DNA of 64,000 nucleotides from Variovorax paradoxus (GTDB lineage: Bacteria > Pseudomonadota > Gammaproteobacteria > Burkholderiales > Burkholderiaceae_C): the NCBI RefSeq assembly GCF_018614875.1, contig NZ_JAGGNW010000008.1, positions 1 through 64,000 of the forward strand. Reading direction: 5' to 3'. A program made the position numbers and the translations under genes. The notes below the pieces were generated by a model. The model was not told the origin of the DNA. It was given only the letters and a program-made list of their open reading frames with translations, and ran no database searches. Positions 11,230 to 50,347 of the stretch are shown piece by piece. Each line of letters opens with the position of its first letter. Within the stretch, counting starts at the first letter, position 1.

Positions 11230-12234
11230 TCAGAATGGCGGTGCGTCGCCGAGCCGGAACTCCCGCGTGATCGCGTCCAGTTTCTCCAATATCTGGGCGT
11301 CCAATTTTGTTTCTCCGGCTTGCAGAACTTCCGTCAACTGAGATGCACGGCTTGCCCCGAGAACCGCGCAGGTCACGCCGCGTTGCGCCAGCAGCCAAGC
11401 CACCGCCAGCCGTTCAGGAGACATGCCCACGCTCTGGGCGACCTCCAAGATTCGGCCAATCGCTTCGAACTCCTTGTCGTGCCAGTACCGCTGCCGGTAC
11501 GCAGCCGCGATGCCACCCGCACCGAAGCGCGTCGCCGCTTCAGCGGGCGCACCATGGCGATACTTTCCCGTCAGCAAGCCCCCAGCCAGGGGGTTGTAGC
11601 AGAGCGTTGCGAGGTTCTCTGCCTCACACATGGGAAACAGGTCACGCTCGAACTGACGGAACAGCAGGTTATACCGAGGCTGCACGGTGACCGACTTCAC
11701 CAGGCCAAGCGCCTCGCTCCGGCCAAGCGCACGTGCGATGCGCCAGGCGCCCCAGTTGGAGACGCCGACGTAGCGCGCCCGGCCGCTGCGCACGATGGTG
11801 TCGAGTGCTTCGAGCGTTTCGTCGAGCGGTGTCGTGGGATCGTCCCGGTGCAACTGGAACAAGTCCACGTAGTCGGTACCAAGCCGGGAGAGCGACGCGT
11901 CGATGGCGCTCAGCAGGTGTTTGCGCGACGTGCCTGCATCCCATGGCATCGGGCCCATCGGTCCCCCGGCCTTCGTCGTCAGGATGAAGCGTTCCCGACG
12001 ACCTTTGAGCCATCTGCCGATGATCTCCTCGGTCAAGCCCTTGCGCTCGTCCGGTGCGTCGCTGGGGTAGCGGTTTGCGGTGTCGATGAAGTTGACGCCA
12101 GCATCGGTGGCGGCATCGAGGATCGACACCGACTCGGCTTCGTCGGCACTGGATCCGAAGGTCATCGTGCCGAGGCACAGGCGCGAGACCTTCAGCCCCG
12201 TGTTGCCGAGATGGACCAGGTGGCTGTAGCTCAT
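11230..12234 (-). CDS. Aldo/keto reductase, copy 1 of duplicated cassette
   Basis: 334 residues from the ATG at 12234 (MSYSHLVHLGNTGLKVSRL), exactly the length of copy 2 at 44607-45611 and nearly the same sequence. The AKR tetrad is visible: Asp in NFIDTANRYP, Tyr in the same motif, Lys in LTTKAGG and His in LFQLHRDD. The enzyme reduces carbonyls with NADPH. An open frame continues upstream to 13266 through the decayed NMO and DUF2889 sequences, but that extension is not a real protein. This is the only gene of copy 1 that looks intact; whether it is expressed is uncertain because the upstream genes are broken. Confidence 0.85.
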   Translation of the reverse strand: MSYSHLVHLGNTGLKVSRLCLGTMTFGSSADEAESVSILDAATDAGVNFIDTANRYPSDAPDERKGLTEEIIGRWLKGRRERFILTTKAGGPMGPMPWDAGTSRKHLLSAIDASLSRLGTDYVDLFQLHRDDPTTPLDETLEALDTIVRSGRARYVGVSNWGAWRIARALGRSEALGLVKSVTVQPRYNLLFRQFERDLFPMCEAENLATLCYNPLAGGLLTGKYRHGAPAEAATRFGAGGIAAAYRQRYWHDKEFEAIGRILEVAQSVGMSPERLAVAWLLAQRGVTCAVLGASRASQLTEVLQAGETKLDAQILEKLDAITREFRLGDAPPF

Positions 12235-12581
12235 ATGTTTTCCCTTGCTAAAAGAAGATCCCGGGGCGCGCAGGCGATCTCGTATTCGCGAACCAGCCGC
12301 GCGACCAGTGTGGCGACGATCTGCGCCGCAGGCAGCTTGGCAGACACGCTGACCACGAGCGGGCCGACCTTGGTGGAATGGGCCAGTGCCTCCTTGCGCG
12401 CGGTCTGGATCGCATCCAGCCATTCCTCGAACTGCTCGAGCGTCCTGGCGTTGTGGCGCGGCAGAACACCCACCAGTCCCGCAAGGCAGGCCTCGCGCAC
12501 CAGGCTGGGCCCGGTGACGAGAAACATGGGTGCGCAGATGACGGGCAGCGACAGGCTGGAGCGGTTGAACATGGCTGACAT
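12231..12581 (-). pseudogene. Nitronate-monooxygenase-like gene, large internal deletion
   Basis: Starts like copy 2 (MSAMFNRSSLSLPVICAPM) and runs colinearly to VSAKLPAA. It then jumps directly to the last ~28 residues (VATLVARLVREYEIACA) found at the end of copy 2. About 210 residues, including the FMN/phosphate-binding GGGGHSG region, are deleted in frame. The remaining ~116-residue product cannot be active. The stop overlaps the ATG of the aldo/keto reductase, as in copy 2. Confidence 0.85.
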
Positions 12582-12634
12582 GGCTTGTGCCAGGCAAGAA
12601 GCTGGAGGGACGCGTGCTCGCTCGGCTGCGTCGG

Positions 12635-13200
12635 CTAGGCCGACGTCCCTGGCTTGTCGTCCTGCAGGTGGGGCAACAGGCGAACCACGACCTCGCGTTC
12701 TGCCGCGAAGGCGTAGCAGCTGTCCACACGAAATCGGCGTTGCGCGTCGTCGTCGGATCGCCGCTTGAGACGATACGCAGTGGCGCGATGCCTTGCAGCG
12801 CGGTGGTGGCCATGGGGCCCAACAGTTCCACGATGTGCGTGCAGGACGCCACGCCCCCGAGCAGTTCGCGTACGCGCTTGTTCCAGCCCGCCCCGATCCC
12901 GAGCCCCACGAGCGCCTGCAGCGCAGCTGCTGCCCCCGGGCAGATGTTGAACGGCGTCGCCGACATCCTTGCATCCGCAGCAAGAATCCGGAGTTCAGCG
13001 TCCAGCACGAGGCGCACCGTGATGTCGTGCAGGTGCTGCCCGGGCGGAGCGTCCTCCTCAGCCAGCAAGCGACGAAACGGATGCGTCTTGGTATCGACCA
13101 GGCGGCCTTCGACTTCGAACAGGCCGTCACTGCGACGGTAAAAGCGCATGTCGACGGCGCGGTGGTGCAACTCCTCGCGCGTCACTGCATCTGTGCTCAT
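12635..13200 (-). pseudogene. DUF2889 gene with one-base frameshift
   Basis: Begins MSTDAVTREELHHRAVDMRF and is colinear with intact copy 2 at 42176-42742. It spans 566 bases against 567, so one base has been lost near 12770, just after IVSSGDP. The reading frame then shifts; the original C-terminus (QRRFRVDSCYAFAAEREVVV) continues in the next frame to a TAG at 12635. The DUF2889 signature around SCTHIVELLGPMA is present. Product inactive if the frameshift is genuine rather than a sequencing error. Confidence 0.8.
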
Positions 13201-13225
13201 GAACGTCTCCGACCTTGTGAGTGCT

Positions 13226-13693
13226 TCATCCCACCGCAGCACGGAAGATGCGCATGTAGTTTCCACCTGCGATCTTTCCCGCCTCTTCGGAGGTGAACCC
13301 GCCGCGCAGCATCGCCGCGATCAAGTTGACCCACTGCGCATAGTCCTGCAGCGCGCCAGGGGCGACCTGTTGATCGGTTCCCACGCAGACATGGTCCACG
13401 CCGATGACGTCGGCCATTTCCTTCAAGCCCTCGACGTACTTGTCGAGATCGGGAAAGATGGCCCAGATCCCGATGGCACCGCCGGTGTCTGCAATCGCCC
13501 TCGCATGATCAGGTGTCACCTGACGGGCGGCCAGCCGGGCCGATACCATCGCCTGGGAACCGGCAAGTGCTGTATGTGACAGCAACAGCGGTTTGGTGGA
13601 GGCTTTCGCCGCAGCCTTGGCCGCTTGTTCGGTGGCGTGCGCAACATCAACGATCATTCCCAACCGGTGGCAGTCACGGATCACCTCGGCGCC
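13226..13693 (-). pseudogene. M19 membrane-dipeptidase-like gene, 3' part only
   Basis: The last ~155 codons match the C-terminal part of copy 2 (41092-42150), from GAEVIRDCHRLGMIVDVAHA to the identical end YMRIFRAAVG. Upstream of about 13693 the similarity stops abruptly and unrelated sequence follows, so the N-terminal metal-binding half is missing. The gap of 26 bases to the DUF2889 gene is comparable to copy 2. The abrupt edge marks the boundary of the duplicated segment. Confidence 0.85.
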
Positions 13694-13848
13694 CCCGGAG
13701 GGGATCGAATCTTCTGTCGGCGGGCGCATGAACACCTGGTTTCCCGCGCTCGGTTTGTGGAAATACCGACAGAAATACCGACGATTCCATCTGCTTTGAC
13801 GGATGTGGCTGATTTTCCACAAGCAAGGTCTGGGAATGTTGATACGTG

Positions 13849-30690: not shown

Positions 30691-31464
30691 CTATAGGATG
30701 TCCAGCGAAGACTGGACCTGTGCAATGTGTTTCGCGATGGACAAGGCAGCAACTTGTTGATCGTCCTTGGACATCCGACTGTCGATCGAAGACGTTGTGA
30801 TCGCGCCCAGGGCGTTGCCGCTGGAGTTCCGCATCACCATTCCGATGCCAATGACGCCCGGCGCGCTGTAGTGCCCGATAACGGCATGTCCGCGGCGTTG
30901 GGTGGCACGAACAAGGGCGCGCAGTGTGGACTCAGTCAGCGACCCGTAGCTGCCCAAACGCTTCGCGTTTGCACGGATGCATTCGTTCTGCTCGTCCACG
31001 GGCAAGGTCGACAGGATGGCGAGACCCCCTGCACCGACGCCCAAAGGGTTCCTCATACCGACGTTGACCGTCAACACCTGCACCGGATACGAGCCAACCA
31101 CACGGGCCAGGCAGATCGATTCGTACCCCACGCGAGCGATGAGGAACGCGCTGTTTCCGGTGTCTTCTGAAACAGACCTCAGGACTGGCTCGCACACTGT
31201 CCTCAGGTCGGCCCGGTCAGCGAATGCGGCAGCCATCTGCCGACAGTAGTCCCCCAACATATAGCGCTTCGACCCAGCGGGCCGCGTCAACAGGCCTTGT
31301 CTTTCCAAGGCCTGGACGATGCGGTGCACTGTCGGACGCTCGAGCTCGCAGATCGTCACGAGTTCAGCCACCGTCAAACCGTGCGATCCGTGGGCAACAA
31401 CCTGCTTCAGAACACCGATTGTGCGATCGATGCTTTGGGTTCCGCGTGCTTCCGTAGTGGTCAT
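30691..31464 (-). CDS. IclR-family transcriptional regulator
   Basis: About 257 residues from the ATG at 31464 (MTTTEARGTQSIDRTIGVLK), the family norm. Earlier in-frame starts at 31476 and 31551 exist, but the latter lies inside a palindrome that is probably the operator. The helix-turn-helix is ELVTICELERPTVHRIVQAL and the GAF-like effector domain follows (VLRSVSEDTGNSAFLIARVG, then PLGVGAGGLAILS). It is divergent from the citryl-CoA-lyase/thiolase/acyl-CoA dehydrogenase genes and probably controls them in response to a pathway intermediate. Confidence 0.9.
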   Translation of the reverse strand: MTTTEARGTQSIDRTIGVLKQVVAHGSHGLTVAELVTICELERPTVHRIVQALERQGLLTRPAGSKRYMLGDYCRQMAAAFADRADLRTVCEPVLRSVSEDTGNSAFLIARVGYESICLARVVGSYPVQVLTVNVGMRNPLGVGAGGLAILSTLPVDEQNECIRANAKRLGSYGSLTESTLRALVRATQRRGHAVIGHYSAPGVIGIGMVMRNSSGNALGAITTSSIDSRMSKDDQQVAALSIAKHIAQVQSSLDIL

Positions 31465-31546
31465 GCATCGGATCATAGCGTGGACGGTGTGGCGCCGTCG
31501 TAGAGCGTCGACAAGCGGATTTCGGTCTGATGTCTCGATAAAAACA

Positions 31547-31559
31547 TCCATATCGTGGA
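31547..31559. promoter_or_regulatory. Candidate IclR operator TCCA-N5-TGGA
   Basis: TCCATATCGTGGA sits in the divergent region between the IclR gene and the citryl-CoA-lyase-like gene. The same arrangement (TCCACACTGTGGA) occurs at 39956-39968 ahead of the Bug gene. The E. coli IclR consensus is also a short TGGA/TCCA-based dyad. Assignment is inference. Confidence 0.45.
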
Positions 31560-31659: not shown

Positions 31660-32466
31660 ATGACCGACATGACCAAGACCGCCGACCGCAAATACTGGCG
31701 CACCGCCATCGGTGACCCGAGTCCCCATGAAGGCACGATCGTCAGGGGCTACGACGTCCTCACGGATCTGGTCGGCAAGATCGACTTCGGCGCCATGGTG
31801 TACCTGCTCTACAAGGGCGAACTGCCCAGGGGCAACGAGTCCAAGATGATCAACGCGATGTTCATCTCGGTCGCGGACCACGGCATCTCGCCGTCGTCGA
31901 CAGTGACCCGCTTTGTGCAGGCTGCCGGCGTGCCCATCCAATGCGCGGTGGCGGCCGGCGCCATGATGTTCGGCGACGTGCACGGGGGCGCTGGCGAAGA
32001 GTTCACCCGCTACATCCAGGAGCTGGTGGCCTTGGCTGCCTCGAGCGGGCGCAGCTACGAGGACGTGGCAACCGAATACGTGGCCAACCACAAGCGGCTC
32101 GACGGCTTCGGCCACCCGCAGCACGCCGAGGGCGATCCTCGCGGGAAAGTGCTGTTCGCTCTGGCCGAAAAGTGGGGGATCGCAGGTGACCACGTCCGCA
32201 TGACGCGCGAGCTGGAAAAGGCGCTCATCAAGAAGAAGAACCGCCCGCTGCTGGCGAACATCGATGCGGCCGTGGGCGCCCTCATTTCGGACATGGGCTT
32301 CGACTGGCGGCTGGCCCGCGCCTTCATCGTCGTGCCGCGCACGGCGGGCCTGTACGCCCATGCATTCGAAGAACAGGTGCGCGAGCCGGGCTGGCGCCAG
32401 ATCACCCTGGACCAGGTCGAGTACGACGGCCCGCCCCGCCGGACCAACGACGGCCCCGCCATCTGA
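31660..32466 (+). CDS. Citrate-synthase-superfamily protein, citryl-CoA-lyase-like
   Basis: 268 residues from the ATG at 31660, which has AGGAG six bases upstream. This is much shorter than citrate synthase (~430) and matches the small proteins annotated as citryl-CoA lyase. Conserved elements: IVRGYDVLTDLVGKIDFGAM, AAGAMMFGDVHGGAGEE and RLDGFGHPQHAEGDPRGKVL; the GFGH His corresponds to an active-site His of citrate synthase. The usual Tyr after GFGHxx is His here. The family makes or breaks a C-C bond in a citryl-like CoA ester. In this operon it may cleave a branched hydroxyacyl-CoA retro-aldol fashion (inference). A paralogue is at 58164. Confidence 0.8.
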   Translation: MTDMTKTADRKYWRTAIGDPSPHEGTIVRGYDVLTDLVGKIDFGAMVYLLYKGELPRGNESKMINAMFISVADHGISPSSTVTRFVQAAGVPIQCAVAAGAMMFGDVHGGAGEEFTRYIQELVALAASSGRSYEDVATEYVANHKRLDGFGHPQHAEGDPRGKVLFALAEKWGIAGDHVRMTRELEKALIKKKNRPLLANIDAAVGALISDMGFDWRLARAFIVVPRTAGLYAHAFEEQVREPGWRQITLDQVEYDGPPRRTNDGPAI

Positions 32467-32541: not shown

Positions 32542-33720
32542 ATGACCGCTCGCGTCGCAATCGCTGGAATTGGAATGACATCTTTCGGGAAGTTTCTCGA
32601 CCGCTCGGTCAGAAGTCTTTCGGAAGAGGCTGTACGGATCGCATTCGAAGACGCCGGCATCACTGCCGATCGCGTCGACCGGGTTTACTTCGGTAACGCG
32701 GCTGCCGGCCTCGTCACCGGGCAGGAGATGGTCCGCGCCCAGGCTGCGTTGAGATTCACTGGCCTGATGGGCAAGCCGATGATCAACACCGAAAACGCAT
32801 GCGCCACAGGCAGCACCGCGTTCCATTTGGCGTGGCAGTCCGTGTCAGCCGGGCAAGCGGACATCGTCCTGGTGGTCGGTGCTGAAAAGCTGACCCACGT
32901 CGACAAGGCGGTGTCCTTCGGTGCATTTGGAGCCGCGGTGGACATGGAAGAAAAGCAGCTCGACCACGTGGGATCGGGCAGCGGCTCCATCTTCATGGAC
33001 ATCTACGCCGAAAGGACCCGTCGCTACATGGAAGCGACGGGCGTGACGTCGGCTGACATTGCCCAGATCGTGGTCAAGAGCCGGCATGCAGCGTCCCTCA
33101 ATCCCTTTGCCCAGTTCCGCAAGCCGACGACTGTGGAAGAGGTGCTGGCGGCCCGCATGATCAGCAACCCGCTGACGCTTCCGATGTGCTCTTCGATCGG
33201 AGACGGCGCCGCCGCGATCGTCCTCGTCTCCGCCCGCGTCGCTGCGCAACTGACGGGCGCCAGGCCGGTATGGGTGGCCACGTCCACCCTGGTTTCCGGC
33301 TCGGGAGATACGACAGGCCCCAACGCTTCGGCACGGGCCTCTAAGGCTGCCTATGAAGAGGCGTCCATCGATCCGCGCGACGTCCACGTCGTCGAGGTGC
33401 ACGACGGGGCAGCACCCAGCGAGCTGATCAACGCCGAGATCCTGCAGCTTTGCGCGCCGGGAGAAGCCGTCCACATGCTGCGAAGCGGCGCGACAGGCCT
33501 TGGCGGAAAGGTCTCGATCAACCCAAGCGGCGGATTGATCAGCCGGGGCCACCCCATCGGAGCCACCGGCACTGCGCAGATTTTCGAGCTGGCGCAACAA
33601 CTGCGCGGTGAGGCGGGCGAGCGGCAACGCCCGGCTGCCAAGGTTGGACTGGCACAGAACTCCGGCGGGCAAGTTGGCGGTGACTCGGCCGCAGCTGTGG
33701 TGACCATCCTCACCGCATAA
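32542..33720 (+). CDS. SCP2/lipid-transfer-type thiolase-like protein
   Basis: 392 residues. It starts TARVAIAGIGMTSFGKFLDR, typical of the SCP2-thiolase group. The acyl-accepting Cys is in NTENACATGSTAFH, and the active-site His is in SRGHPIGATG. The second Cys of ordinary thiolases (in CxGGGxG) is missing; the corresponding stretch is AQNSGGQVGGDSAAA. Proteins of this type thiolytically cleave branched 3-ketoacyl-CoA (SCP-x) or act as retro-aldolases (steroid Ltp2), the latter normally with a DUF35 partner that is not visible here. Confidence 0.85.
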   Translation: MTARVAIAGIGMTSFGKFLDRSVRSLSEEAVRIAFEDAGITADRVDRVYFGNAAAGLVTGQEMVRAQAALRFTGLMGKPMINTENACATGSTAFHLAWQSVSAGQADIVLVVGAEKLTHVDKAVSFGAFGAAVDMEEKQLDHVGSGSGSIFMDIYAERTRRYMEATGVTSADIAQIVVKSRHAASLNPFAQFRKPTTVEEVLAARMISNPLTLPMCSSIGDGAAAIVLVSARVAAQLTGARPVWVATSTLVSGSGDTTGPNASARASKAAYEEASIDPRDVHVVEVHDGAAPSELINAEILQLCAPGEAVHMLRSGATGLGGKVSINPSGGLISRGHPIGATGTAQIFELAQQLRGEAGERQRPAAKVGLAQNSGGQVGGDSAAAVVTILTA

Positions 33721-33781: not shown

Positions 33782-34696
33782 ATGACGCAGCGACTGCTGG
33801 GCAAAGTGATTGTGGTGACTGGCGCTGGCGCCGGCGTTGGCAAGGAGATCGCGCTGGAGGCGGCGCGTCAGGGTGCGCGCGTGGTCGTGAACGACCTGGG
33901 CGTGAGCATGGACGGTGCAGGCGGAAGTGCAGGGCCTGCGCAGGAGACCGTCGAGCAGATTCGCGCCGCAGGTGGCGAGGCGAGTGCCAACACCGACAGC
34001 GTGGCCGAATGGAACTCGGCACAGCAGATCGTGAAGCACGCACTGGATGTGTACGGGCGTGTTGACGGCTTGGTGAACAACGCAGGCAATTTGCGCGACG
34101 GGATCTTCCACAAGATGTCGGAGGAAAACTTCGACGCCGTGGTGAAGGTGCACCTGAAGGGTTGTTTCAACATGGCCCGCGCTGTCGCGCCGCATTTCAA
34201 GAGCCAGGAAAGCGGCGCCATCGTCCATATGACCTCGACCTCGGGACTGATCGGCAATTTCGCGCAGGCCAACTACGCCGCCGCGAAGATGGGCGTGGTC
34301 GGGCTGTCGAAATCGATCGCGCTCGACATGGCGCTCTTCAATGTGCGGTCGAACTGCATTGCGCCGTTTGCATTCACCCGCATGGTGAGTTCGATCCCGA
34401 CCGACACCCCTGAGGGCATGGCCCGCACGCTGGTCAACCAGCGCATGGAGGTCGCAAAGATTGCGCCGTTCACCTGCGCACTGCTCACCGACGAAGCCAG
34501 TGGCGTGTCCGGCCAGATCTTCGGCGTTCGCAGCAACGAGATCTACCTGTTCTCCCAGCCGCGGCCGATCCGCACCGCACACCGCAGCGAGGGCTGGACC
34601 GTCGATACCTGCCTTGAAGTGGCACTGCCCATGATGAAGCCCTCATTCTTCCCGCTGGACAACTCGCGCGACGTCTTCACTTGGGATCCCGTCTGA
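33782..34696 (+). CDS. SDR, 3-hydroxyacyl-CoA dehydrogenase-like (MFE-2 dehydrogenase type)
   Basis: 304 residues. VTGAGAGVGKEIALEAARQG, then VVVNDLGVSMDGAGGSAGPA: the long Gly-rich insertion after the NAD-binding Asp is characteristic of the dehydrogenase part of peroxisomal multifunctional enzyme 2. NNAGNLRD and the catalytic Ser/Tyr/Lys in STSGLIGNF and NYAAAKMG are intact. It likely oxidises a 3-hydroxyacyl-CoA in the same pathway as the thiolase and acyl-CoA dehydrogenases. An AGGAG-like site does not stand out; GGAGAAAG precedes the ATG. Confidence 0.88.
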   Translation: MTQRLLGKVIVVTGAGAGVGKEIALEAARQGARVVVNDLGVSMDGAGGSAGPAQETVEQIRAAGGEASANTDSVAEWNSAQQIVKHALDVYGRVDGLVNNAGNLRDGIFHKMSEENFDAVVKVHLKGCFNMARAVAPHFKSQESGAIVHMTSTSGLIGNFAQANYAAAKMGVVGLSKSIALDMALFNVRSNCIAPFAFTRMVSSIPTDTPEGMARTLVNQRMEVAKIAPFTCALLTDEASGVSGQIFGVRSNEIYLFSQPRPIRTAHRSEGWTVDTCLEVALPMMKPSFFPLDNSRDVFTWDPV

Positions 34697-39043: not shown

Positions 39044-39072
39044 GTGCTGAACTCATCAATGGAGGCACTTCA

Positions 39073-39798
39073 ATGACCATGTCTCAAGTCAAGACAGTCG
39101 TGCAGGATTCTGCAAGCGTGGTCTCGGCCATCGAGAGCCGCTTCTCGTGCCGTGCGTTCTTGCCCGACAAGCCAGTCACGCGCCAGCAGATCGACGAGAT
39201 TCTGCGGATCGCGAGTTGCTCGGCGTCCAGCACGAACACCCAGCCGTGGAAGGTGTATGTGCTGCAAGGAGATCGCCGTGATGCACTCGTCGAGGAGGTG
39301 TGCGCTGCGCACGATGCGACCAGCGCCGATTCTTCCCTGACTGCCGAGTACGGGGAGGTGGACGGCTACTACCCTGCGCAGTGGGTTTCCCCTTACATCG
39401 ACCGACGGCGTGACAACGGCTGGGGCTTGTACGGTGCTTTGGGAATCGGAAAAGGCGAGAAGGACAAGATGCACGCTCAGGCGCAGCGAAATTACCGTTT
39501 TTTCGACGCGCCAGTGGGACTCATGTTCACCATGGAGCGCGTGATGGGCCGCGGCTCCCTGATCGACTACGGCATGTTCCTGCAGACCCTGATGCTGGCA
39601 GCCCGCGCTCTTGGCCTGCACACCTGCCCCCAGGCGGCGTGGAACAACTGCGCGAAGATCGTCATGCCTTTCATCGGCGCAGGTTCCAATGAAATACTGG
39701 TTTGCGGCATGGCGCTTGGCTATGCGGACGAGTCCGCACCGGTGAACACTTACAGGACGCCGCGCGAAACGGTGGAGAGTTTCACGCGCTGGGTCTGA
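39073..39798 (+). CDS. Nitroreductase-family flavoprotein
   Basis: 241 residues. RFSCRAFLPDKPVTRQQIDE, then ASCSASSTNTQPWKVYVLQG is the FMN-binding N-terminus; FFDAPVGLMFTMERVMG and SLIDYGMFLQTLMLAARAL follow. Members reduce nitro groups, quinones or enoates with NAD(P)H. In catabolic clusters they may serve as ene-reductases. A second, divergent member is encoded at 45652. Confidence 0.85.
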   Translation: MTMSQVKTVVQDSASVVSAIESRFSCRAFLPDKPVTRQQIDEILRIASCSASSTNTQPWKVYVLQGDRRDALVEEVCAAHDATSADSSLTAEYGEVDGYYPAQWVSPYIDRRRDNGWGLYGALGIGKGEKDKMHAQAQRNYRFFDAPVGLMFTMERVMGRGSLIDYGMFLQTLMLAARALGLHTCPQAAWNNCAKIVMPFIGAGSNEILVCGMALGYADESAPVNTYRTPRETVESFTRWV

Positions 39799-39955
39799 CC
39801 TCAGCGCTCTACAGCCTTCATGCGGCATGAATAACGCTGCCTTCCGCCAGGCACTTGAGAGCGCGTTGTTCACGCCGTACTTCGTTCCACAGAAAGAATT
39901 TGCCGGTGTTGTTCGCAGGGATTCCCAATTCTCCCGACTGACGCAACGAAAACTG

Positions 39956-39968
39956 TCCACACTGTGGA
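39956..39968. promoter_or_regulatory. Palindrome TCCACA-C-TGTGGA upstream of the Bug gene
   Basis: A perfect 13-base inverted repeat located about 65 bases before the ATG at 40034. It has the same outer TCCA/TGGA spacing as the site in the IclR divergent region (31547), suggesting the same regulator. Confidence 0.45.
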
Positions 39969-40033
39969 TGTAGGGTTGGCGCTGCATGTGCGGCGCTTTT
40001 ACATTGATCGCTCGATAACTATATGGAGACAAG

Positions 40034-41002
40034 ATGATTTCCCGTCGTCAATTTACCCACATCGGTCTGGCCGCGCTCACGCTGCCGTCCTTGGCAATTG
40101 CAGCTCCCTTCACGTCACAAACAATCAAGGTGATCGTTCCAAATTCGCCCGGTCCAGGCACCGACGTGTTGGCACGATTCTTCGCGGCCTACATGGCGAA
40201 GCAGTGGAACTCAACGGTCTTGGTGGAAAACAAGGCAGGCTCCGGTGGCCAGCTCGCGACTGACTTTGCCGCCAAAGCTCCGCCGGATGGAACCGTGATC
40301 CTGATGACCACGAGTGCGCATTTCACCTATCCATATCTCTACGCAAAACTGCCGTTTGACCCCGTGAAGGACTTGGTTCCGGTCGCCCAGTTCGTTCAAG
40401 GTGCATTTGCAGTCGTGGTGGCGGCAGATTCGCCTTTCAAGACGGTCCAGGACCTCATCAACGAAGCCAAGCGCAAGCCGGGAACGATCAGTTTTGCTTC
40501 TGCGGGCGTCGGATCGCCCACCCATATGGCTGGCGCTCAATTCGGGAACATGGCAGGTATCAACATCGTTCACATTCCCTATAAAGACGCCTCGCAAGTG
40601 ATGACTGATGTGATAGGCGGGCAACTTCAAATGGGACTCGCCGGCACCTCAACGGCAATGTCGATGATTCAAGCTGGAAAGTTGCGTGCCTTAGCCGTCA
40701 CTGCTCCGAAACGCATCCCGGCTCTCGCCAATGTTCCGACTTTGGACGAATCGGGTGTGCGTGGGTACGACGTGACTTCGCCCATACTCGCGGTCACGCG
40801 GGCCGGCACGCCAGCAGCCACAGTCTCGGAAATCTCGCGGATCATGCTTGAGGCCGCCAATACGCCTGAGTTCAAGGAAATTGCCGACAAGCTGGGTTAC
40901 GTGATGGATTTGCAAGACTCGGCCAAACTGCGCATCAGTTTTCCGGGCGAATTCGCCAAGTGGAAGCGGATGGTTGAGATCTCTGGCGCGAAGCCGGGAT
41001 GA
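40034..41002 (+). CDS. Bug/TctC-family periplasmic substrate-binding protein
   Basis: 322 residues. It has an N-terminal signal with an SRRQFTHIGLAAL stretch and cleavage near AIAAPF. IKVIVPNSPGPGTDVLARFF, LVENKAGSGGQLATDF and TISFASAGVGSPTHMAG are Bug-family hallmarks. These receptors normally work with TctAB membrane proteins, none of which is encoded here. Orphan Bug receptors are typical of Burkholderiales and bind diverse carboxylates. Confidence 0.92.
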   Translation: MISRRQFTHIGLAALTLPSLAIAAPFTSQTIKVIVPNSPGPGTDVLARFFAAYMAKQWNSTVLVENKAGSGGQLATDFAAKAPPDGTVILMTTSAHFTYPYLYAKLPFDPVKDLVPVAQFVQGAFAVVVAADSPFKTVQDLINEAKRKPGTISFASAGVGSPTHMAGAQFGNMAGINIVHIPYKDASQVMTDVIGGQLQMGLAGTSTAMSMIQAGKLRALAVTAPKRIPALANVPTLDESGVRGYDVTSPILAVTRAGTPAATVSEISRIMLEAANTPEFKEIADKLGYVMDLQDSAKLRISFPGEFAKWKRMVEISGAKPG

Positions 41003-41091
41003 CTGTGACGGGCACCTTCTGACAAGCCATGTGCTGCGGTCACTTCCACGCGGTTGGCACCTCTTGCCGTCATTCGATCTGGAGCACGCCA

Positions 41092-42150
41092 ATGGCGTCG
41101 GTCCAGGCGATGCTCAGCGGCAGTGTCGGACCCTACGGCTCGACCGAAGCGGCCCAGGTCGCCGAGGTTGGCGCCAAAGCGCTGGAGGTTCTGCGCAAAT
41201 CCATCTCGGTGGACGTCCACACGCACGGCGGACCACAAGGCATCTACTCTCCGGCACCGCCCAACGACGCGCTTGCAGCCGGGATGCGGGCCGGCTCCCT
41301 TGCTGCAGTGTGCCTGTCGGAAATCCCGGATGAACCTCTTCTTGGAAGAAATGCAGCCGGGGTCACCGGCCTCACCCGGTTGCCCAGACCGGGTGAGCTT
41401 TACGCACACCATTTGGCACGACTCGCCTGGGGCGACGACATGGTGGCGCACCACGGCTTGCGGCGCGCACTGAAGGCAGCCGATCTGGAATCCGCTCACG
41501 CTGCAACTCAGCCTTCGGTGATCGGGGGTGTCGAGGGTTTGGACTTCATGGAAGGAAAGTTGGAGCGGTTGGAAGAAGCCCACCAGCGCGGCATCCGCTC
41601 GGCTCAACTTGTGCACTTCACACCCAACGATATTGGTGATTTCCAGATGGGCGTGGTGACGCACGAAGGGTTGACCGAGTTTGGCGCCGAGGTGCTCCGA
41701 GCCTGCCATCGGTTGGGAATGATCGTAGATGTTGCGCACGCCACCGAGCAAACGGCCAAGGCTGCGGCGAAAGTCTCCACCAAACCGCTGCTCTTGTCGC
41801 ATACAGCGCTTGCCGGCTCGCAGGCAATGGCGTCGACCCGATTGGCCGCTCGCTGCGTGAGCGCGGATCATGCAAGGGCGATTGCAGGAACCGGTGGTGC
41901 CATCGGGATCTGGGCCATCTTTCCTGACCTCGAGAAATACGTCGAGGGACTGAAGGAAATGGCTGACGTCGTCGGCGTGGACCATGTATGCGTGGGGACC
42001 GATCAACAGGTCGCGCCTGGTGTGCTGCAAGACTATTCGCAGTGGGTCAACCTGATCGCAGCGATGCTGCGCGGCGGGTTCACTTCCGAAGAGGCGGGGA
42101 AGATCGCCGGTGGCAATTACATGCGCATCTTCCGAGCCGCGGTGGGATGA
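41092..42150 (+). CDS. M19 membrane-dipeptidase-like metallohydrolase, copy 2
   Basis: 352 residues from the ATG at 41092, preceded by GGAG; an upstream ATG at 41029 adds 21 unlikely residues. The metal site is recognisable: SVDVHTHGG (HxH), GGVEGLDFMEG (bridging Glu), LLSHTALAG (His) and VCVGTDQQV (Asp). No convincing signal peptide was seen, so it is probably cytoplasmic. M19 relatives hydrolyse dipeptides or other amides and lactams; here, between a Bug receptor and DUF2889, it may open an amide or ester of the substrate. A 3' fragment of a near-identical copy lies at 13226-13693. Confidence 0.85.
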   Translation: MASVQAMLSGSVGPYGSTEAAQVAEVGAKALEVLRKSISVDVHTHGGPQGIYSPAPPNDALAAGMRAGSLAAVCLSEIPDEPLLGRNAAGVTGLTRLPRPGELYAHHLARLAWGDDMVAHHGLRRALKAADLESAHAATQPSVIGGVEGLDFMEGKLERLEEAHQRGIRSAQLVHFTPNDIGDFQMGVVTHEGLTEFGAEVLRACHRLGMIVDVAHATEQTAKAAAKVSTKPLLLSHTALAGSQAMASTRLAARCVSADHARAIAGTGGAIGIWAIFPDLEKYVEGLKEMADVVGVDHVCVGTDQQVAPGVLQDYSQWVNLIAAMLRGGFTSEEAGKIAGGNYMRIFRAAVG

Positions 42151-42175
42151 ATCACCAGCGAGGTCGGGGACTTTC

Positions 42176-42742
42176 ATGAGCACAGATGTAGTGACGCGCG
42201 AAGAGTTGCACCACCGCGACGTAGACATGCGCTTTTACCGTCGCAGCGACGGCCTGTTCGAAGTCGAAGGCCGCCTGGTCGACACGAAGACGCACCCGTT
42301 TCGGCGCTTGTTGGCTGAAGAGGATGCTCCGCCAGGGCACCACCTGCACGACATCACAGTTCGCCTCGTGCTGGATGCTGAACTCGTGGTTCACGCCGCA
42401 GATGCAAGGATGTCGGCAACGCCTTTCCACATCTGCCCAGGGGCAGCAGCTGCGCTGCAAGCCCTGGTGGGTCTCAGCATCGGGGCGGGCTGGAACAAGC
42501 GCGTACGCGAACTGCTTGGGGGCGTGGCGTCCTGCACGCACATCGTGGAGCTGTTGGGCCCGATGGCCACGACCGTGCTGCAAGGCATGGCGCCGCTACG
42601 CATCGTCTCGACTGACGATCCTGAAAACGACGCGCAGCGCCGCTTTCGTGTGGACAGCTGCTACGCGTTCGCGGCCGAACGCGAGGTCGTGGTTCGCCTG
42701 TTGCCAAACCTGCAGCGTGAGAAGCCAGGGGCGTCGATCTGA
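42176..42742 (+). CDS. DUF2889 family protein, intact copy 2
   Basis: 188 residues of unknown function. HHRDVDMRFYRRSDGLFEVE, HDITVRLVLDAELVVHAADA, FHICPGAAAALQALVG and SCTHIVELLGPMA carry the family pattern, including conserved Cys and His residues that could bind a metal. No signal peptide. It lies between the M19 hydrolase and a crotonase. The same neighbours occur in the decayed copy, so the association is a conserved unit. Confidence 0.85.
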   Translation: MSTDVVTREELHHRDVDMRFYRRSDGLFEVEGRLVDTKTHPFRRLLAEEDAPPGHHLHDITVRLVLDAELVVHAADARMSATPFHICPGAAAALQALVGLSIGAGWNKRVRELLGGVASCTHIVELLGPMATTVLQGMAPLRIVSTDDPENDAQRRFRVDSCYAFAAEREVVVRLLPNLQREKPGASI

Positions 42743-42774
42743 CCGAGCCTTCTACCGAACCAAGAGGTAAATGC

Positions 42775-43608
42775 ATGACTTATGAAGCGATCGAGTTCGA
42801 CATCGAAGACGGCATTGCGTTTCTGCACTTGAACCGTCCAGAGGCCAAAAATGCGCTCGATGACGTGATGCGGGTGGAAATCGCTGACGTCATCGGACGC
42901 TTGCGCAAGGGGATCGACCACAAGGAGCTCGATGTTGGAGCATTGGTGATCGGCGGGCGCGGCGGCGCCTTTTGCGGCGGCGGCGACGTGAAGGGCATGG
43001 CCACGAAGAAGACCAGCCAGATGATGCACAGCCGCATGACGAACGTCCAGGACTGGTTTCGCGACCTCCTTAAGCTCGAGATGCCCGTCATCGCGGCGGT
43101 GGAGGGGCCTGCTTTCGGGGCCGGGTTCAGCATCGCGCTGGCGGCCGACTTCATCATCGCCACGCCGAAGACGAGTTTCTGTGCAGCGTTCGGCCGCATG
43201 GGACTGGTGCCGGACACGTCCATCGTCTTCACGCTGCCTCGCATCGTGGGATTGCAGCGCGCCAAGGAGTTGATCTTCTCGGCGCGCGTGCTGGGTGCCG
43301 AAGAGGCCAAGGCGATGGGCATCGTGTACGACCTGGTGCCCGAAGGCGAAGCCATCGAAGCGGCCACCGAGCTCGCGCGCAAGATGAAGCTGGCGTCCGT
43401 GGCTGCTGTGGGGCTCACCAAGCAGCTGCTCCATCAGACCTTCGAGTCGAGCCAGGCGGCGATGGCGCAGGCGGAGGCGCTTGCGCAAGCCGTCGCCATT
43501 GGCACGGACTACCACGCGGATGCTATTCAGCGGTTCGTCGGAAAGTCGCCCCTGCTGTTCACGGGCTTCAGCGAGCGGAACTGGCGCAAGCCGACGCAGC
43601 CGAAGTAG
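42775..43608 (+). CDS. Crotonase-family enoyl-CoA isomerase-like protein
   Basis: 277 residues. AFCGGGDVKGM forms the first oxyanion-hole segment and GPAFGAGFSIALAADFI the second. Both hydratase glutamates are replaced (GAGFS; CAAFGR). The following GLVPDTSIVFTLPRIVG carries the Asp in VPD that is catalytic in PaaG-type delta3-delta2 enoyl-CoA isomerases. It is therefore more likely an isomerase than a hydratase. There is no counterpart in the decayed cassette copy at 12.6 kb. Confidence 0.85.
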   Translation: MTYEAIEFDIEDGIAFLHLNRPEAKNALDDVMRVEIADVIGRLRKGIDHKELDVGALVIGGRGGAFCGGGDVKGMATKKTSQMMHSRMTNVQDWFRDLLKLEMPVIAAVEGPAFGAGFSIALAADFIIATPKTSFCAAFGRMGLVPDTSIVFTLPRIVGLQRAKELIFSARVLGAEEAKAMGIVYDLVPEGEAIEAATELARKMKLASVAAVGLTKQLLHQTFESSQAAMAQAEALAQAVAIGTDYHADAIQRFVGKSPLLFTGFSERNWRKPTQPK

Positions 43609-43653
43609 CCAACCGCCCATTTGATTTCCTACCTGGCACAAGCCACATCAGCC

Positions 43654-44610
43654 ATGTTCAACCGCTCCAGCCTTTCGATTCCTGTCATCTGCGCACCCAT
43701 GTTTCTCGTCACCGGGCCCAACCTGGTGCGGGAAGCTTGCCTCGCGGGACTGGTGGGTGTTTTGCCACGCCACAACGCGAGGACGCTTGAGCAATTCGAG
43801 GAATGGCTGGATGCGATCCAGGCCGCGCGGAAAGAAGCGCTGGCCCATTCCACCAAGGTCGGCCCGCTCGTGGTCAACGTTTCCGCCAAACTCCCTGCGG
43901 CCGAACTCGAGGAGAGCTTGGCGCTTGCAGGTCGATACGGCGTCGAGACGGTCATCAGTGTGGGCGGCGGGCCGCGCGAGGTCGTGCGCGTGGCGCACTC
44001 GATGAGCATGGGCGTGCTGCACGATGTCATCAGTGTGGAGTTCGCGAAGAAGGCGCTCAGCCAGGGCGTCGATGGCCTGATCGCCATTGGTCTGGGCGGC
44101 GGCGGCCATTCCGGGCTTCTGTCGCATCTGACGCTGATCGAAAAAATCCGCACGATCTTCAAGGGGCCGTTGGTCATGGCGGGGGGCGTCTCGACGGGTG
44201 CCGGCGTGCGGGCCGCAGAAGTTCTGGGCGCCGACTATGCGTACATGGGAACGCGCTTCATTGCCACGAAGGAAGCCGATGCGCCGGCCGACTACAAGCA
44301 GATGCTCGTCGAATCGACATCGGAAGACCTCGTTTACACGCCCGACGTCACTGGCGTGTCGGCGAACTGGTTGAAGCCCTCGCTGAAGCGCTGCGGGATC
44401 GACATCGAGTCGCTCGCGAAGCCCGGCGCCGAGCGCTTCGACCATCTGCCGAGTGACATCCGGCCGTGGCGCGACATCTGGAGCGGCGGGCAAGGCATCG
44501 ATCTCATCGACGACATTCCCGACGTCGCCACGCTGGTCGCTCGGCTCGTCCGCGAATACCAGGTCGCCTGCGCGCGCCAGGATTTGCCTTCAGCAACGGA
44601 GGATAGATGA
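43654..44610 (+). CDS. Nitronate-monooxygenase (2-nitropropane dioxygenase) family flavoprotein, copy 2
   Basis: 318 residues from the ATG at 43654 (MFNRSSLSIPVICAPMFLV); a TTG at 43621 could extend it by 11. FMN-binding TIM barrel: LVREACLAGLVGVLPRHNAR, ALGLGGGGHSG-like IGLGGGGHSGLLSHL with the catalytic His, and GGVSTGAGVRAAEVLGADYA with MGTRFIATKE. The family oxidises nitronates or reduces enoyl groups (FabK-like). In a CoA-ester pathway an oxygenase or ene-reductase role is open. The stop overlaps the aldo/keto reductase ATG. Confidence 0.87.
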   Translation: MFNRSSLSIPVICAPMFLVTGPNLVREACLAGLVGVLPRHNARTLEQFEEWLDAIQAARKEALAHSTKVGPLVVNVSAKLPAAELEESLALAGRYGVETVISVGGGPREVVRVAHSMSMGVLHDVISVEFAKKALSQGVDGLIAIGLGGGGHSGLLSHLTLIEKIRTIFKGPLVMAGGVSTGAGVRAAEVLGADYAYMGTRFIATKEADAPADYKQMLVESTSEDLVYTPDVTGVSANWLKPSLKRCGIDIESLAKPGAERFDHLPSDIRPWRDIWSGGQGIDLIDDIPDVATLVARLVREYQVACARQDLPSATEDR

Positions 44611-45611
44611 GCACCAGCCACCTGATCCGGCTCGGCAACACGGGGCTGCAGGTCTCACGCCTGTGTCTTGGCACGATGACCTTCGGATCCAGCGCCGACG
44701 AAGCGGAGTCGGTGTCGATCTTGGATGCCGCCACGGATGCGGGCGTCAACTTCATCGACACCGCGAATCGGTACCCGAGTGACGCGTCGGACGAGCGCAA
44801 GGGGACCACCGAGCGAATCATCGGCAAATGGCTGAAGGGCCGGCGCGAGCGCTTTATCGTCACGACCAAGGCCGGGGGCCCGATGGGGCCACTGCCATGG
44901 GATGCCGGTACGTCGCGCAAACACCTGCTCGGCGCCATTGACGCATCGCTGACGCGGCTCGGCACCGACTACGTCGATCTGTTCCAGCTGCACCGGGACG
45001 ATCCCACGACACCGCTCGACGAGACGCTCGAAGCACTCGACACCATTGTGCGCAGCGGGCGAGCGCGCTACGTCGGTGTCTCGAACTGGGGCGCGTGGCG
45101 CATCGCGCGCGCCCTGGGGCGGAGCGAGGCACTGCGGCTGGTGACGCCCGTCACCGTCCAGCCTCGGTACAACCTTCTGTTTCGCCAGTTCGAGCGCGAC
45201 CTGTTTCCCATGTGCGTCGCGGAGAACCTCGCCACGCTCTGCTACAACCCACTGGCCGGTGGCTTGCTGACGGGCAAGTACCGCGGCAAGACACAGGCCG
45301 ATGCGTCCACGCGCTTCGGCACCGGAAGCACCGCAGCCGCGTACAGGCAGCGGTACTGGCACGACAAGGAGATCCAGGCAGTGGACCGCATCATGGATGT
45401 TGCTCTGCTTGCCGGCCTGGCGCCTGTGCGACTCGCAGGGGCATGGGTACTGGCGCAACCTGGCGTCACTTGCATGGTCCTCGGGGCGAGCCGTGCGTCG
45501 CAGTTGCCTGAAGTGCTGCGGGCCGTCGAAACGAAGCTCGACGACCAAGTCTTGCAAGAGCTGGACGCGATCACGCGGGAGTTCCGGCTCGGCGATGCAC
45601 CGCCATTCTGA
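44607..45611 (+). CDS. Aldo/keto reductase, copy 2
   Basis: 334 residues, with GGAGGATAG directly before the ATG. Catalytic Asp and Tyr in FIDTANRYPSDASDE, Lys in VTTKAGG and His in FQLHRDDPTTP. Closely similar along its whole length to copy 1 (11230-12234). It probably reduces a ketone or aldehyde intermediate using NADPH. Confidence 0.92.
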   Translation: MSTSHLIRLGNTGLQVSRLCLGTMTFGSSADEAESVSILDAATDAGVNFIDTANRYPSDASDERKGTTERIIGKWLKGRRERFIVTTKAGGPMGPLPWDAGTSRKHLLGAIDASLTRLGTDYVDLFQLHRDDPTTPLDETLEALDTIVRSGRARYVGVSNWGAWRIARALGRSEALRLVTPVTVQPRYNLLFRQFERDLFPMCVAENLATLCYNPLAGGLLTGKYRGKTQADASTRFGTGSTAAAYRQRYWHDKEIQAVDRIMDVALLAGLAPVRLAGAWVLAQPGVTCMVLGASRASQLPEVLRAVETKLDDQVLQELDAITREFRLGDAPPF

Positions 45612-46329: not shown

Positions 46330-46669
46330 AGCAAGTGAGCAGCCGCAAGCCGACCGTGCACCTGCTCTGCTGGTCGAGGTTGCGGCATGACCCGAGGCGT
46401 CGACGACTATGGTTCGATGAACCATTCGAAGCTAGCGCCCGAATCCACGCCACGTGCACGCTGAACAAGCGCTCGCCGCGGATGGTCAAGCGGCGCCACT
46501 CTCCTTACGCATCATTCGACCACCACGCGCCGAATCGCGTACCCATCGATTGACTCCCGAGATCATCGGGCCGCCTGGACCGCGACCCAAGCCGGCCGAT
46601 GCCCGCATACCGCGTCGATTCAGAAGCTTTCTTCTTTAAACGAACAGTAGTGGGGTAGGGCCGGCTCCT
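46330..46669. other. Spacer between nitroreductase and IS remnant
   Basis: About 340 bases without a recognisable gene. A T-run on the plus strand (46677-46688) lies just beyond it, inside the degraded end of the IS701-type fragment. Confidence 0.4.
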
Positions 46670-47020
46670 GGCGCGCGTTTTTTTTTTACCCTCGACCTCG
46701 TCGGGGTGCTGCGGCCGCTGTGCCAGCAGGAAGCCGTAGGCGGCAATGCTGAGGCTGGCGTGATGATGAAAGCCGCGCCAACCCCGTCCCTCGTACTGTC
46801 CCAGGTTCTGCTTGAGATCTTGGTAGTCACGCTCGATGTGCCAGCGCATCTTGGCCTCGTAGACCATGCGCTGCAGCGACGTGACCTCGGGCAGCGTGCA
46901 CAACCAGTACTCCAGCGGCTCGTCGTGGCCCTCGGGCCATTCGATCAGCAGCCATTGCGCCTCGCGCAGTTCGCTGCGCTGCTCGTCGCGGTGCGTGCAC
47001 GTATGCGGCGCACCAAAAGA
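46670..47020 (-). pseudogene. IS701-type (DDE_5) transposase C-terminal remnant
   Basis: AQWLLIEWPEGHDEPLEYWL, MRWHIERDYQDLKQNLGQYE and GRGWRGFHHHASLSIAAYGF are the C-terminal region of IS701-family transposases. The catalytic Glu region is present (QYEGRGW). The N-terminal two thirds are missing and the tail after AQRPQHPDE is degenerate. It differs from the remnant at 18.6-19.5 kb, so the two come from related but separate elements, in opposite orientation. Confidence 0.8.
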
Positions 47021-47059
47021 GAACAAGGCGCGTGCCAGAAAAGTCACTCTTTGAGTATT

Positions 47060-48916: not shown

Positions 48917-50347
48917 ATGATCAATACCGATACCGCTCCCCGGGCGATCCGCTCCTGGCTGGGCATCCCTTACGCCACCGCAGAGCGCTTCTGCAGACCA
49001 ACCCTTCTGCCGTTCAACCCGGACCTGCCCTATGACCAGAAGAGGCCTGCCCCGATGCAAGCCGGCGACACGAGCTGGCTCGAGGCCGACAACGGCTTGA
49101 GCGAGGACTGTCTGAATCTCAATGTCTGGGCACCCGAAGATGCGGGGGATCAACCGCTCCCTGTGATCGTCTACATCTTCGGCGGCGGCTTCGAGATCGG
49201 TGCCAATACACAGACCACCTCGAATGCCTCGGGCCTCGCCGCGACTGGTCGCGCCATCGGGGTGTCCCTGAACTATCGGCTTGGCCCGTTTGGGTGGCTG
49301 TCGCTCTCCCAGTATGGAGGCGTGTTCGCGGACGCCACCAACCTCGGCCTGCAAGACATCATCACCGCGCTCAGGTGGGTGCAGGAGAACATCGCCCGCT
49401 TCGGCGGTGACCCTCGGAACGTCACCGTCACCGGCCACAGCGCCGGGGCCTACTCCACGATCGGGCTCCTCGCCGCCCCGGCCGCCGACGGCCTCTACCG
49501 GCGCCTCGCTGCATTCTCCGGCGGCGCATCCCGGATCGTTCCGGCATGGTGGGCCGAAGAACTCGCGATCACGTTCCTCACCGAGCTCGGCATCGCGGAC
49601 GATCCCGAACAGTTGCTCACTCTGGATGCGAAGCTCCTCGCTGAGACACTCATCAAGGTCAGCCCGCGCGACATCGGCGACCGACACGGTATCGACAACA
49701 CGACGATCGGCATCGTGAACGACCGCTCTCAGACCGGGGCCGTTCTCGCCGACACGCCGCTGCGTGTCCTTGCATCCGGGCGTCACCGCGACGTCGACAT
49801 CCTTTTCAGCACGGCGACGAACGAGGCGGACTGGTGGGTCATCAACGCGACCAAGAAATTCGACCCGGGCAGCATCGACAACCTCGTCGACGAGCTCGTC
49901 AGGAAGTCGCGCATTCCCCGCAGCCGCGCCCGACGCATTGTTGCCGTATACGACGTCAACGGACGCACTCCGGTCGAGGTCCGCGGGGCACTCTTCACTG
50001 ACTATTTCTTTACCCTTCCCGCCGCGCGTGCGGCGATCGCCCACGCCGCCGCAGGCGGCAAGGCTCATCTGCTCGCCGTGGGCCCTGTCGAGGGTGCGCC
50101 CGCCGTACACGGGACTGAGATGTACGGCATCGTCGGCCAGCAACGCCCAGGACAGAGCGACGAGCAAGCCATCCGGGACACCTTTGTCCGCGATACGGTC
50201 CTCGACTTCGCCAACGGCAATCACGACCAGCTTTGGAGCGCCGTGACCACGGAACCCACCTCACACGGTATCGGCAACCTACCCTACGACCCTACCGGCC
50301 ATGCGGCCGAGATCCTGCGCACTTTTGCGGACGTTGAGCGGACCTGA
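48917..50347 (+). CDS. Type B carboxylesterase
   Basis: 476 residues. SEDCLNLNVWAPEDAGDQPL is the family signature; the oxyanion hole is IFGGGFEIGA and the nucleophile is in VTVTGHSAGAYS (GHSAG rather than the common GESAG). FSTATNEADWW supplies the acidic residue and APAVHGTEMYGIVG the His. No signal peptide is evident, so it is cytoplasmic. It hydrolyses carboxylic esters. Codon use appears more strongly C-ending than its neighbours and the sequence resembles actinobacterial esterases; transfer is inference. Confidence 0.88.
   Translation: MINTDTAPRAIRSWLGIPYATAERFCRPTLLPFNPDLPYDQKRPAPMQAGDTSWLEADNGLSEDCLNLNVWAPEDAGDQPLPVIVYIFGGGFEIGANTQTTSNASGLAATGRAIGVSLNYRLGPFGWLSLSQYGGVFADATNLGLQDIITALRWVQENIARFGGDPRNVTVTGHSAGAYSTIGLLAAPAADGLYRRLAAFSGGASRIVPAWWAEELAITFLTELGIADDPEQLLTLDAKLLAETLIKVSPRDIGDRHGIDNTTIGIVNDRSQTGAVLADTPLRVLASGRHRDVDILFSTATNEADWWVINATKKFDPGSIDNLVDELVRKSRIPRSRARRIVAVYDVNGRTPVEVRGALFTDYFFTLPAARAAIAHAAAGGKAHLLAVGPVEGAPAVHGTEMYGIVGQQRPGQSDEQAIRDTFVRDTVLDFANGNHDQLWSAVTTEPTSHGIGNLPYDPTGHAAEILRTFADVERT

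Follow-up and report, generated by a model that had tools for sequence, protein, structure and literature searches.

What does DUF2889, a family of small proteins bearing conserved cysteine and histidine residues, do in the midst of catabolic genes, and what do those genes break down? The question is raised by a stretch of 64,000 nucleotides from Variovorax paradoxus (assembly GCF_018614875.1, contig NZ_JAGGNW010000008.1, positions 1 to 64,000 of the forward strand), hereafter the window, which lies on a 71,551-base contig of a 5.59-Mb assembly. An original prediction from the letters of the window had singled out five genes, coding for an M19-family hydrolase, a DUF2889 protein, a crotonase (ECH2), an NMO-family flavoprotein, and an aldo/keto reductase (AKR), as an undescribed catabolic unit. 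We found that these genes belong to a longer conserved run, whose probable function is to degrade a ring-bearing acid in the form of its coenzyme A (CoA) ester. The reading that we favor, and consider rather probable, is that of one Variovorax catabolic operon with a divergent IclR-like gene, in which DUF2889 is a small Cys/His protein of the kind that serves acyl-CoA pathways and acts here with the ECH2/NMO step. The run is real, conserved, catabolic, and ordinary in kind; the role of DUF2889 is the more interesting product of the analysis. The genes are given below in window positions, with orthologues from two further Variovorax genomes, G037 and G007, and from V. boronicumulans PgBe293.

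30691..31551, minus strand: IclR-like regulator, divergent, start likelier near 31473; named by eye; orthologue divergent in G037, G007, and V. boronicumulans
31660..32466, plus strand: CIT, citryl-CoA-lyase-like (citrate synthase C-terminal domain); PF00285; NF004866 at 389.7 bits, cut-off 245
32542..33720, plus strand: thiolase, lipid-transfer-protein type; Thiolase_N and Thiolase_C_1; under the NCBIfam cut-offs
33782..34696, plus strand: SDR2 dehydrogenase; PF00106
34728..35816, plus strand: ACAD1, match to the acyl-CoA dehydrogenase C-terminal domain only, adjoins ACAD2; PF00441
35813..36952, plus strand: ACAD2, acyl-CoA dehydrogenase; PF02770/PF02771
36998..37789, plus strand: ECH1, enoyl-CoA hydratase family; PF00378
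37844..39043, plus strand: CaiB/BaiF class III CoA-transferase; PF02515, 391 bits
39073..39798, plus strand: NTR1, nitroreductase-family flavoprotein; PF00881; PDB 3gr3 at E 3.8e-53
40034..41002, plus strand: Bug/TctC-type periplasmic binding protein; named by eye; orthologue in G037
41029..42150, plus strand: M19-family hydrolase, His-x-His subfamily; PF01244, 159 bits
42176..42742, plus strand: DUF2889 protein, 188 aa; PF11136, 129.5 bits
42775..43608, plus strand: ECH2, crotonase-family protein; PF00378; nearest PDB entry 4jcs
43654..44610, plus strand: NMO-family flavoprotein, FabK-like; PF03060, 86 bits; best PDB match FabK 2z6i
44607..45611, plus strand: AKR, aldo/keto reductase; PF00248, 242 bits
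45652..46329, plus strand: NTR2, nitroreductase-family flavoprotein; PF00881; orthologue in G037
48917..50347, plus strand: carboxylesterase; PF00135; adjoins the run in G037, G007, and V. boronicumulans

The 15 genes from CIT (31660) to NTR2 (ending at 46329) are co-directional and follow the order CIT-thiolase-SDR2-ACAD1-ACAD2-ECH1-CaiB-NTR1-Bug-M19-DUF2889-ECH2-NMO-AKR-NTR2, with 13 of the 14 gaps between them measuring -4 to 75 nt and a single wide gap of 235 nt separating NTR1 from Bug. The IclR-like gene lies upstream in divergent orientation, and the carboxylesterase follows, split from NTR2 in the window by an insertion sequence (IS) remnant and an MFS gene; the remnant is 57% identical over 60 aa to a transposase open reading frame (ORF) at 18608. 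The contiguity and close spacing claimed for the five genes are borne out, as they stand on one strand in the order M19, DUF2889, ECH2, NMO, and AKR with gaps of 25, 32, 45, and -4 nt, their ORFs hold no internal stops, and all score above the Pfam cut-offs. They are not the whole module, since nine upstream genes (31660-41002) and NTR2 (45652) stand in the same run, and we infer that the 15 genes are co-transcribed and that the five form the distal part of one operon. The M19 gene most likely starts at 41029 rather than at 41092, as had been assumed, because the upstream ATG is common to all four orthologues and the 63 nt between the two starts differ mainly at third positions when the orthologues are compared; the likely starts of DUF2889 and, probably, NMO are 42176 and 43654. 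Transposase remnants in the window comprise a DDE_5-like one (18608-19276, plus strand), a similar piece between NTR2 and the MFS gene (46505-47047, minus strand), and an IS66 piece (15554-16201, minus strand).

Comparison of orthologues, for which matches of at least 60% identity were listed, places the run in other members of the genus. Both G037 and G007 are syntenic with the window from CIT through NMO, followed by AKR, NTR2, and the carboxylesterase, and with the IclR-like gene divergent. In G037, NTR2 precedes AKR and NMO is shorter by a few residues at its end; in G007, NTR1 and Bug are each split between frames, the SDR2 alignment starts at residue 21, and the NTR2 match is weaker. The V. 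boronicumulans PgBe293 locus retains the genes from IclR to NTR1, M19, AKR, and the esterase; ECH2, NMO, and NTR2 are missing at this locus, to which alone the statement applies, and the Bug gene there is not orthologous. Of 100 further Variovorax genomes that were searched, 3 have a close M19 (88-89% identity) and three more have relatives at 42-45%. Pairwise omega for the intact genes of the run is 0.04-0.16, pointing to past constraint on them, as distinct from present function. This synteny and low omega, together with a literature search that found no description of the run's gene combination, uphold the idea of an undescribed catabolic unit holding DUF2889. The thiolase of the run is 97% identical to that of G037 and 75% identical to those of G007 and V. 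boronicumulans, a pattern that its neighbor genes do not have and that possibly reflects mosaic exchange inside the run.

The family assignments define the chemistry in outline. CIT exceeds the cut-off of NF004866 and of two further citryl-CoA-lyase subfamily models, which makes this its predicted activity. The best NCBIfam models for ACAD1, ACAD2, and ECH1 are IpdE2 (75 bits, cut-off 450), pimC_large (161 bits, cut-off 624), and EchA19 (221 bits, cut-off 400), respectively, and ECH2 falls under all 25 NCBIfam cut-offs listed. ECH2 had been taken for a PaaG-type isomerase (1,2-epoxyphenylacetyl-CoA isomerase), an assignment rejected at 136.7 bits against the TIGR02280 cut-off of 345.15. The NMO protein is over the Pfam NMO cut-off (86.3 versus 28 bits); its closest solved structures are FabK enoyl reductases, with true NMOs such as PA1024 scoring lower, and it is under the FabK equivalog cut-off of TIGR03151 (89.3 versus 453 bits). 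In our judgement, this closeness to FabK speaks against nitroalkane chemistry as its main role. Relatives of NMO at 40-47% identity are widespread in the order (58 of 200 genomes, G000 included).

In the pathway that we propose, the esterase and M19 would release an ester or acid, Bug would capture it, and CaiB would form the CoA ester, which the ACAD pair, ECH1, SDR2, and the thiolase would subject to beta-oxidation. The FabK-like NMO and the crotonase ECH2, together with SDR2, would see to it that a ring is oxidized and then opened hydrolytically, in the manner of IpdC, EchA20, and IpdF; AKR and the nitroreductases would reduce carbonyl or enone intermediates, and CIT would cleave a tertiary hydroxyacyl-CoA. 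DUF2889 would serve acyl-CoA pathways generally, probably via a bound metal or Fe-S center, with the ECH2/NMO step as its most likely partner here. The precedent for this step comes from steroid degradation: in the available text of its description, IpdC is a flavin-containing protein 30% identical to FabK that, with IpdF, turns a cyclic hydroxyacyl-CoA into an enone whose ring the crotonase EchA20 hydrolyzes (PMC5380842). By analogy, NMO and ECH2 could act like IpdC and EchA20 and open a ring.

The link of DUF2889 to such pathways emerges from its gene neighborhoods. The family is present in 61 of 150 relatives as against 0 of 14 control genomes, and its loci were sampled as 80 stretches from Burkholderiales and the best 80 of at least 561 named loci. 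Enrichment was counted over 70 loci (80 less two syntenic ones, L121 and L127, and eight under 8 kb), taking neighbors within 5.3 kb, and over 40 random control regions of the same genomes, three of them exchanged by hand (on a DUF2889 gene or no more than about 5 kb from one); ten neighbor components were checked with Pfam, and the others were named by eye. At 54 of the 70 loci, but in only 7 of the 40 random regions, a CaiB, ACAD, ECH, or thiolase gene is found near DUF2889 (p 1.7e-9). Singly, the counts at loci and controls are 30 and 3 for CaiB, 26 and 4 for Bug, 21 and 4 for ACAD, 25 and 4 for ECH, 14 and 1 for thiolase, and 9 and 0 for nitroreductase, with no significant enrichment of SDR (9/70 versus 5/40). 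Genes for HMG-CoA lyase, HpcH, MCC, or SucCD add a further association (22/70 versus 0/40, p 1.3e-5; singly, HMG-CoA lyase 8 versus 0, p 0.049, and HpcH 3 versus 0, p 0.55). None of the 70 loci and none of the 40 controls holds AKR, M19, MFS, or ADH. The association of DUF2889 with acyl-CoA genes is general, and the combination of M19 and DUF2889 is private to the Variovorax run; with M19 at 0 of 70 other loci, the two are rejected as a generally conserved pair.

Across all 160 loci, the nearest same-strand gene within 250 nt upstream is most often an unclustered one (28), followed by CaiB (13), CNNM/CorC, an AroB-like cluster, and a CBS protein (7 each), and HMG-CoA lyase (4); within 150 nt downstream, 26 unclustered genes are followed by CaiB, ECH, and SucC (6 each) and HpcH (4). 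In a tree of 163 rows, a seven-row clade with support 100 unites the window protein, its three orthologues, and its closest relatives outside the run, those of Hydrogenophaga aromaticivorans, a Comamonadaceae metagenome-assembled genome, and G057, in all three of which CaiB directly precedes DUF2889. The order is ACS-DUF2889-NMO-ECH in Nitrincola (L242) and CaiB-DUF2889-ECH...NMO-ACAD in another Variovorax (L071). Tandem DUF2889 genes lie close to HMG-CoA lyase in G095 (L098:6603-8326). A different setting, by DnaJ-domain, CobS, and often BolA or CobT genes, is seen in Alphaproteobacteria (L178, L179, L186, L189, L201, L207, L211, L215, L218, L225-L227, L232, L240, L241, and L244); it is one associated with metal or Fe-S handling.

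The protein itself matches PF11136 over profile positions 1-123 of 123 (129.5 bits, cut-off 25). Numbered from the ATG at 42176, 16 columns are invariant (H12, R14, R23, D25, G26, L27, E31, D36, H58, P83, C87, G99, G105, C120, H122, and C162) in a 55-row alignment, which omits 26 of the 80 named loci, L221 and L224 among them. The predicted Cys/His conservation is thus confirmed for H12, H58, C87, C120, H122, and C162; in a separate 83-row alignment, these are kept in 80/82, 83/83, 83/83, 83/83, 83/83, and 81/82 rows, respectively. An alignment led by another member also retains the invariant columns, and it overlaps the 55-row set, so that it is no independent test. We consider that these residues likely form a putative Cys/His site, at which a metal is plausible. 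Two AlphaFold2 models, with pLDDT of 90.1 (window protein) and 90.9, show four long strands with helices after them. Their structural matches are mixed, including aldehyde/xanthine oxidase, nicotinate dehydrogenase, ISCU2, lipoate-ligase-like proteins, and RnfG; ISCU2 is matched at Z 8.0-8.2 over 96-97 residues (root mean square deviation 2.7-2.9) and, with the second model, at Z 7.2-7.4. The likeness to IscU had been put forward before the fold matches were obtained, and SufE is absent from the fold-match rows listed. Searches of the PDB with the single sequence and with a profile gave nothing below E 0.5, Foldseek searches of PDB and viral libraries with the model gave no E below 0.001, and hhalign found no link between DUF2889 and M19. 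As far as the accessible text of two papers goes, the family is reported to be remotely linked to a SCOP superfamily (PMC4520260), and positive selection is listed for one DUF2889 gene in the core genome of the Burkholderia cepacia complex (PMC7253759); neither text, to that extent, gives a function.

The M19 protein matches PF01244 over profile positions 72-318 of 319 (159 bits, cut-off 26). At the first metal motif, it has His-x-His, as do 11 of the 12 proteins scoring over 100 bits (the window protein and three orthologues included; the 12th has no N-terminus), and among 23 lower-scoring M19 proteins, His-x-Asp is found in 11 and no clear motif, by pattern, in 12. We take His-x-Asp to be the renal dipeptidase motif at that N-terminal metal position. 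Residues E169, H196, H237, H258, and D325 do not vary among the six sequences aligned, presumably with the roles that they have in renal dipeptidase. In agreement with the original prediction, no signal peptide was seen by eye; the nearest relatives outside the run have N-termini that, again by eye, are long or signal-like. In G265 (L163:5703-12739), one His-x-His relative (121 bits) is flanked by CaiB and an NMO-family gene at a locus that has no DUF2889.

Decay of the locus offers a further view of which genes go together. The window contains a second, degraded copy:

11230..13729, minus strand: broken second copy, with M19 C-terminal fragment, frameshifted DUF2889, NMO fragment, and AKR; without ECH2

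In this set, at about 13693-11230, M19 is kept from about codon 190 of 352, DUF2889 is frameshifted at codon 149, 89 NMO codons remain, and AKR is full length; DUF2889 and AKR share one open frame of 678 aa. In V. boronicumulans, the DUF2889 frameshift is elsewhere (codons 41-54; omega 0.33). In both cases, ECH2 has been lost at the locus, DUF2889 is broken, and AKR is still present. That ECH2 loss accompanies DUF2889 damage in these two instances is no more than suggestive.

Several observations weigh against a single ring-opening operon in which DUF2889 serves acyl-CoA chemistry. The 235-nt gap between NTR1 and Bug might divide the run into two transcripts, and a scan for promoters and terminators stayed at background level (16 terminators found versus 14.8 expected). 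Among the models listed, citryl-CoA-lyase subfamilies are the only NCBIfam cut-offs that the run reaches, so that the models point to no one substrate. The enrichment p values are optimistic, as related genomes share history and the loci are not phylogenetically independent; outside the genus, only 12 of 21 DUF2889 loci have acyl-CoA genes (versus 0 of 14 controls), with ECH alone significant singly. NMO, the supposed partner, is not significantly enriched near DUF2889 (4/70 versus 0/40, p 0.29), and in 23 tree rows, all of them alphaproteobacterial-named records, DUF2889 stands by CobS/CobT/DnaJ/BolA and not by CoA genes. The pairing of ECH2 loss with DUF2889 damage amounts to two cases, and the V. 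boronicumulans locus is also without NMO, NTR2, and an orthologous Bug; the broken DUF2889 of copy 2 itself has an omega of 0.11, within the 0.11-0.19 of the copy-2 pieces. At the level of the fold, Z values of 7-9 are in the range that the tool flags as a possibly common arrangement, and the hhalign comparison of DUF2889 with IscU (P 0.032, the best of 11 comparisons) is not significant, two of ten controls reaching 0.056-0.057, even if C87 was aligned with an IscU cysteine.

These points leave room for other explanations. One is a beta-oxidation of dicarboxylates or alicyclic acids (pimeloyl-CoA or cyclohexanecarboxylate-like), with NMO, the nitroreductases, and AKR detoxifying side products and DUF2889 as a housekeeping passenger. 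Plain beta-oxidation fits the thiolase, SDR, ECH, and CoA-transferase, and ACAD2 scores best with the model for the large subunit of pimeloyl-CoA dehydrogenase (161 bits), accompanied by a weak pimD match for ACAD1 (48.5 bits), yet both scores are far under the pim cut-offs (624 and 653), and the neighborhood enrichment makes DUF2889 statistically no random passenger, so that we regard this account as possible but doubtful. The cytoplasmic, amidohydrolase-led cleavage of a nitrogen-containing or lactone compound, as the original prediction had it, appears quite improbable. The M19 protein without a signal peptide, unlike its nearest relatives outside the run, the presence of a hydrolase with NMO- and nitroreductase-family flavoproteins, and the G265 arrangement would suit it. 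However, NMO and nitroreductase are names of Pfam families here, NMO being nearest to FabK and both being under the NCBIfam cut-offs; V. boronicumulans retains M19 at a locus that has lost ECH2 and NMO and in which DUF2889 is frameshifted; and M19 is lacking at the other DUF2889 loci counted. A third account concerns DUF2889 itself, as a non-catalytic, IscU-related Fe-S or metal carrier that supplies or repairs the cofactor of pathway enzymes. The recurrence of IscU chains among the fold matches, the invariant Cys/His residues, and the DnaJ- and BolA-family neighbors in Alphaproteobacteria make this worth tentative consideration, but IscU has no significant link at the sequence level, aldehyde/xanthine oxidase domains, presumably with no cluster at that place, match equally well, and no Fe-S enzyme was recognized among the family matches of the run.

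Set against these, the operon in which a Cys/His DUF2889 protein serves CoA-ester chemistry remains our preferred reading. Its presence beside acyl-CoA genes in several lineages, its invariant Cys/His residues, and a confident model make DUF2889 a testable acyl-CoA-pathway protein, and the run offers a candidate ring-acid pathway in Variovorax, a genus with isolates. A bolder proposal, which we consider unlikely, would make DUF2889 an enzyme family of its own, dependent on a metal or Fe-S center and with an IscU-like fold, repeatedly recruited to acyl-CoA operons for a common CoA-ester reaction and here joined to the ECH2/NMO ring-opening pair, with which it decays. If true, this common reaction would span leucine-type, HpcH/SucCD, and CaiB islands.

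Other catabolic genes surround the run in the window. A separate set at 20907-30279 comprises a periplasmic binding protein, branched-chain-type ABC genes (by eye), an SDR, a LigXa-type Rieske oxygenase, a Rieske ferredoxin, a ferredoxin reductase, and an alcohol dehydrogenase; in G037, its Rieske-to-alcohol dehydrogenase part is likewise present, some 30 kb upstream of the run. Auxin (iad) degradation was considered as a conceivable role of this Rieske system. At 53173-63759 lie genes for a crotonase, a thiolase, a dienelactone-hydrolase family protein, a second CaiB and citrate-synthase-like pair, TctC, an HpaB-type hydroxylase, and MarR, and at 5737-8264 (minus strand), type II dehydroquinase, shikimate dehydrogenase-like, and CaiB genes stand together.

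The run and its proteins have partial counterparts in known systems. In the liu (leucine/isovalerate) clusters of Proteobacteria lies a likeness to some DUF2889 loci, which adjoin HMG-CoA lyase and methylcrotonyl-CoA carboxylase-type genes, whereas such genes were not recognized in the window run. The M19 protein resembles renal dipeptidase in its Pfam family and in retaining E169/H196/H237/H258/D325, and differs from it in having His-x-His rather than His-x-Asp and in showing no signal peptide. With IscU/SufU, DUF2889 may share its predicted strands followed by helices, at a Z of about 8 to ISCU2 that other families equal; in contrast, it has its own motif set and a C-terminal part holding a further invariant Cys, with no significant profile match. 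The pim operon contains an acyl-CoA dehydrogenase large/small pair, a thiolase, and a crotonase, in all of which the run is like it, but the run falls far short of the pim cut-offs and its companion genes differ. A parallel in the combination of protein families, as far as the available account of them extends, is seen in the KstR2/ipd genes for steroid rings C/D (IpdC, IpdF, EchA20, FadE/IpdE, FadA6), which likewise bring together an SDR, a FabK-like flavoprotein, a crotonase, an acyl-CoA dehydrogenase, and a thiolase acting on CoA esters. An IpdAB-like gene was not recognized among the scanned genes, no dedicated search having been made, and ACAD1 misses the IpdE2 equivalog. To this shared core, the Variovorax run adds CaiB, CIT, M19, DUF2889, AKR, and the nitroreductases.

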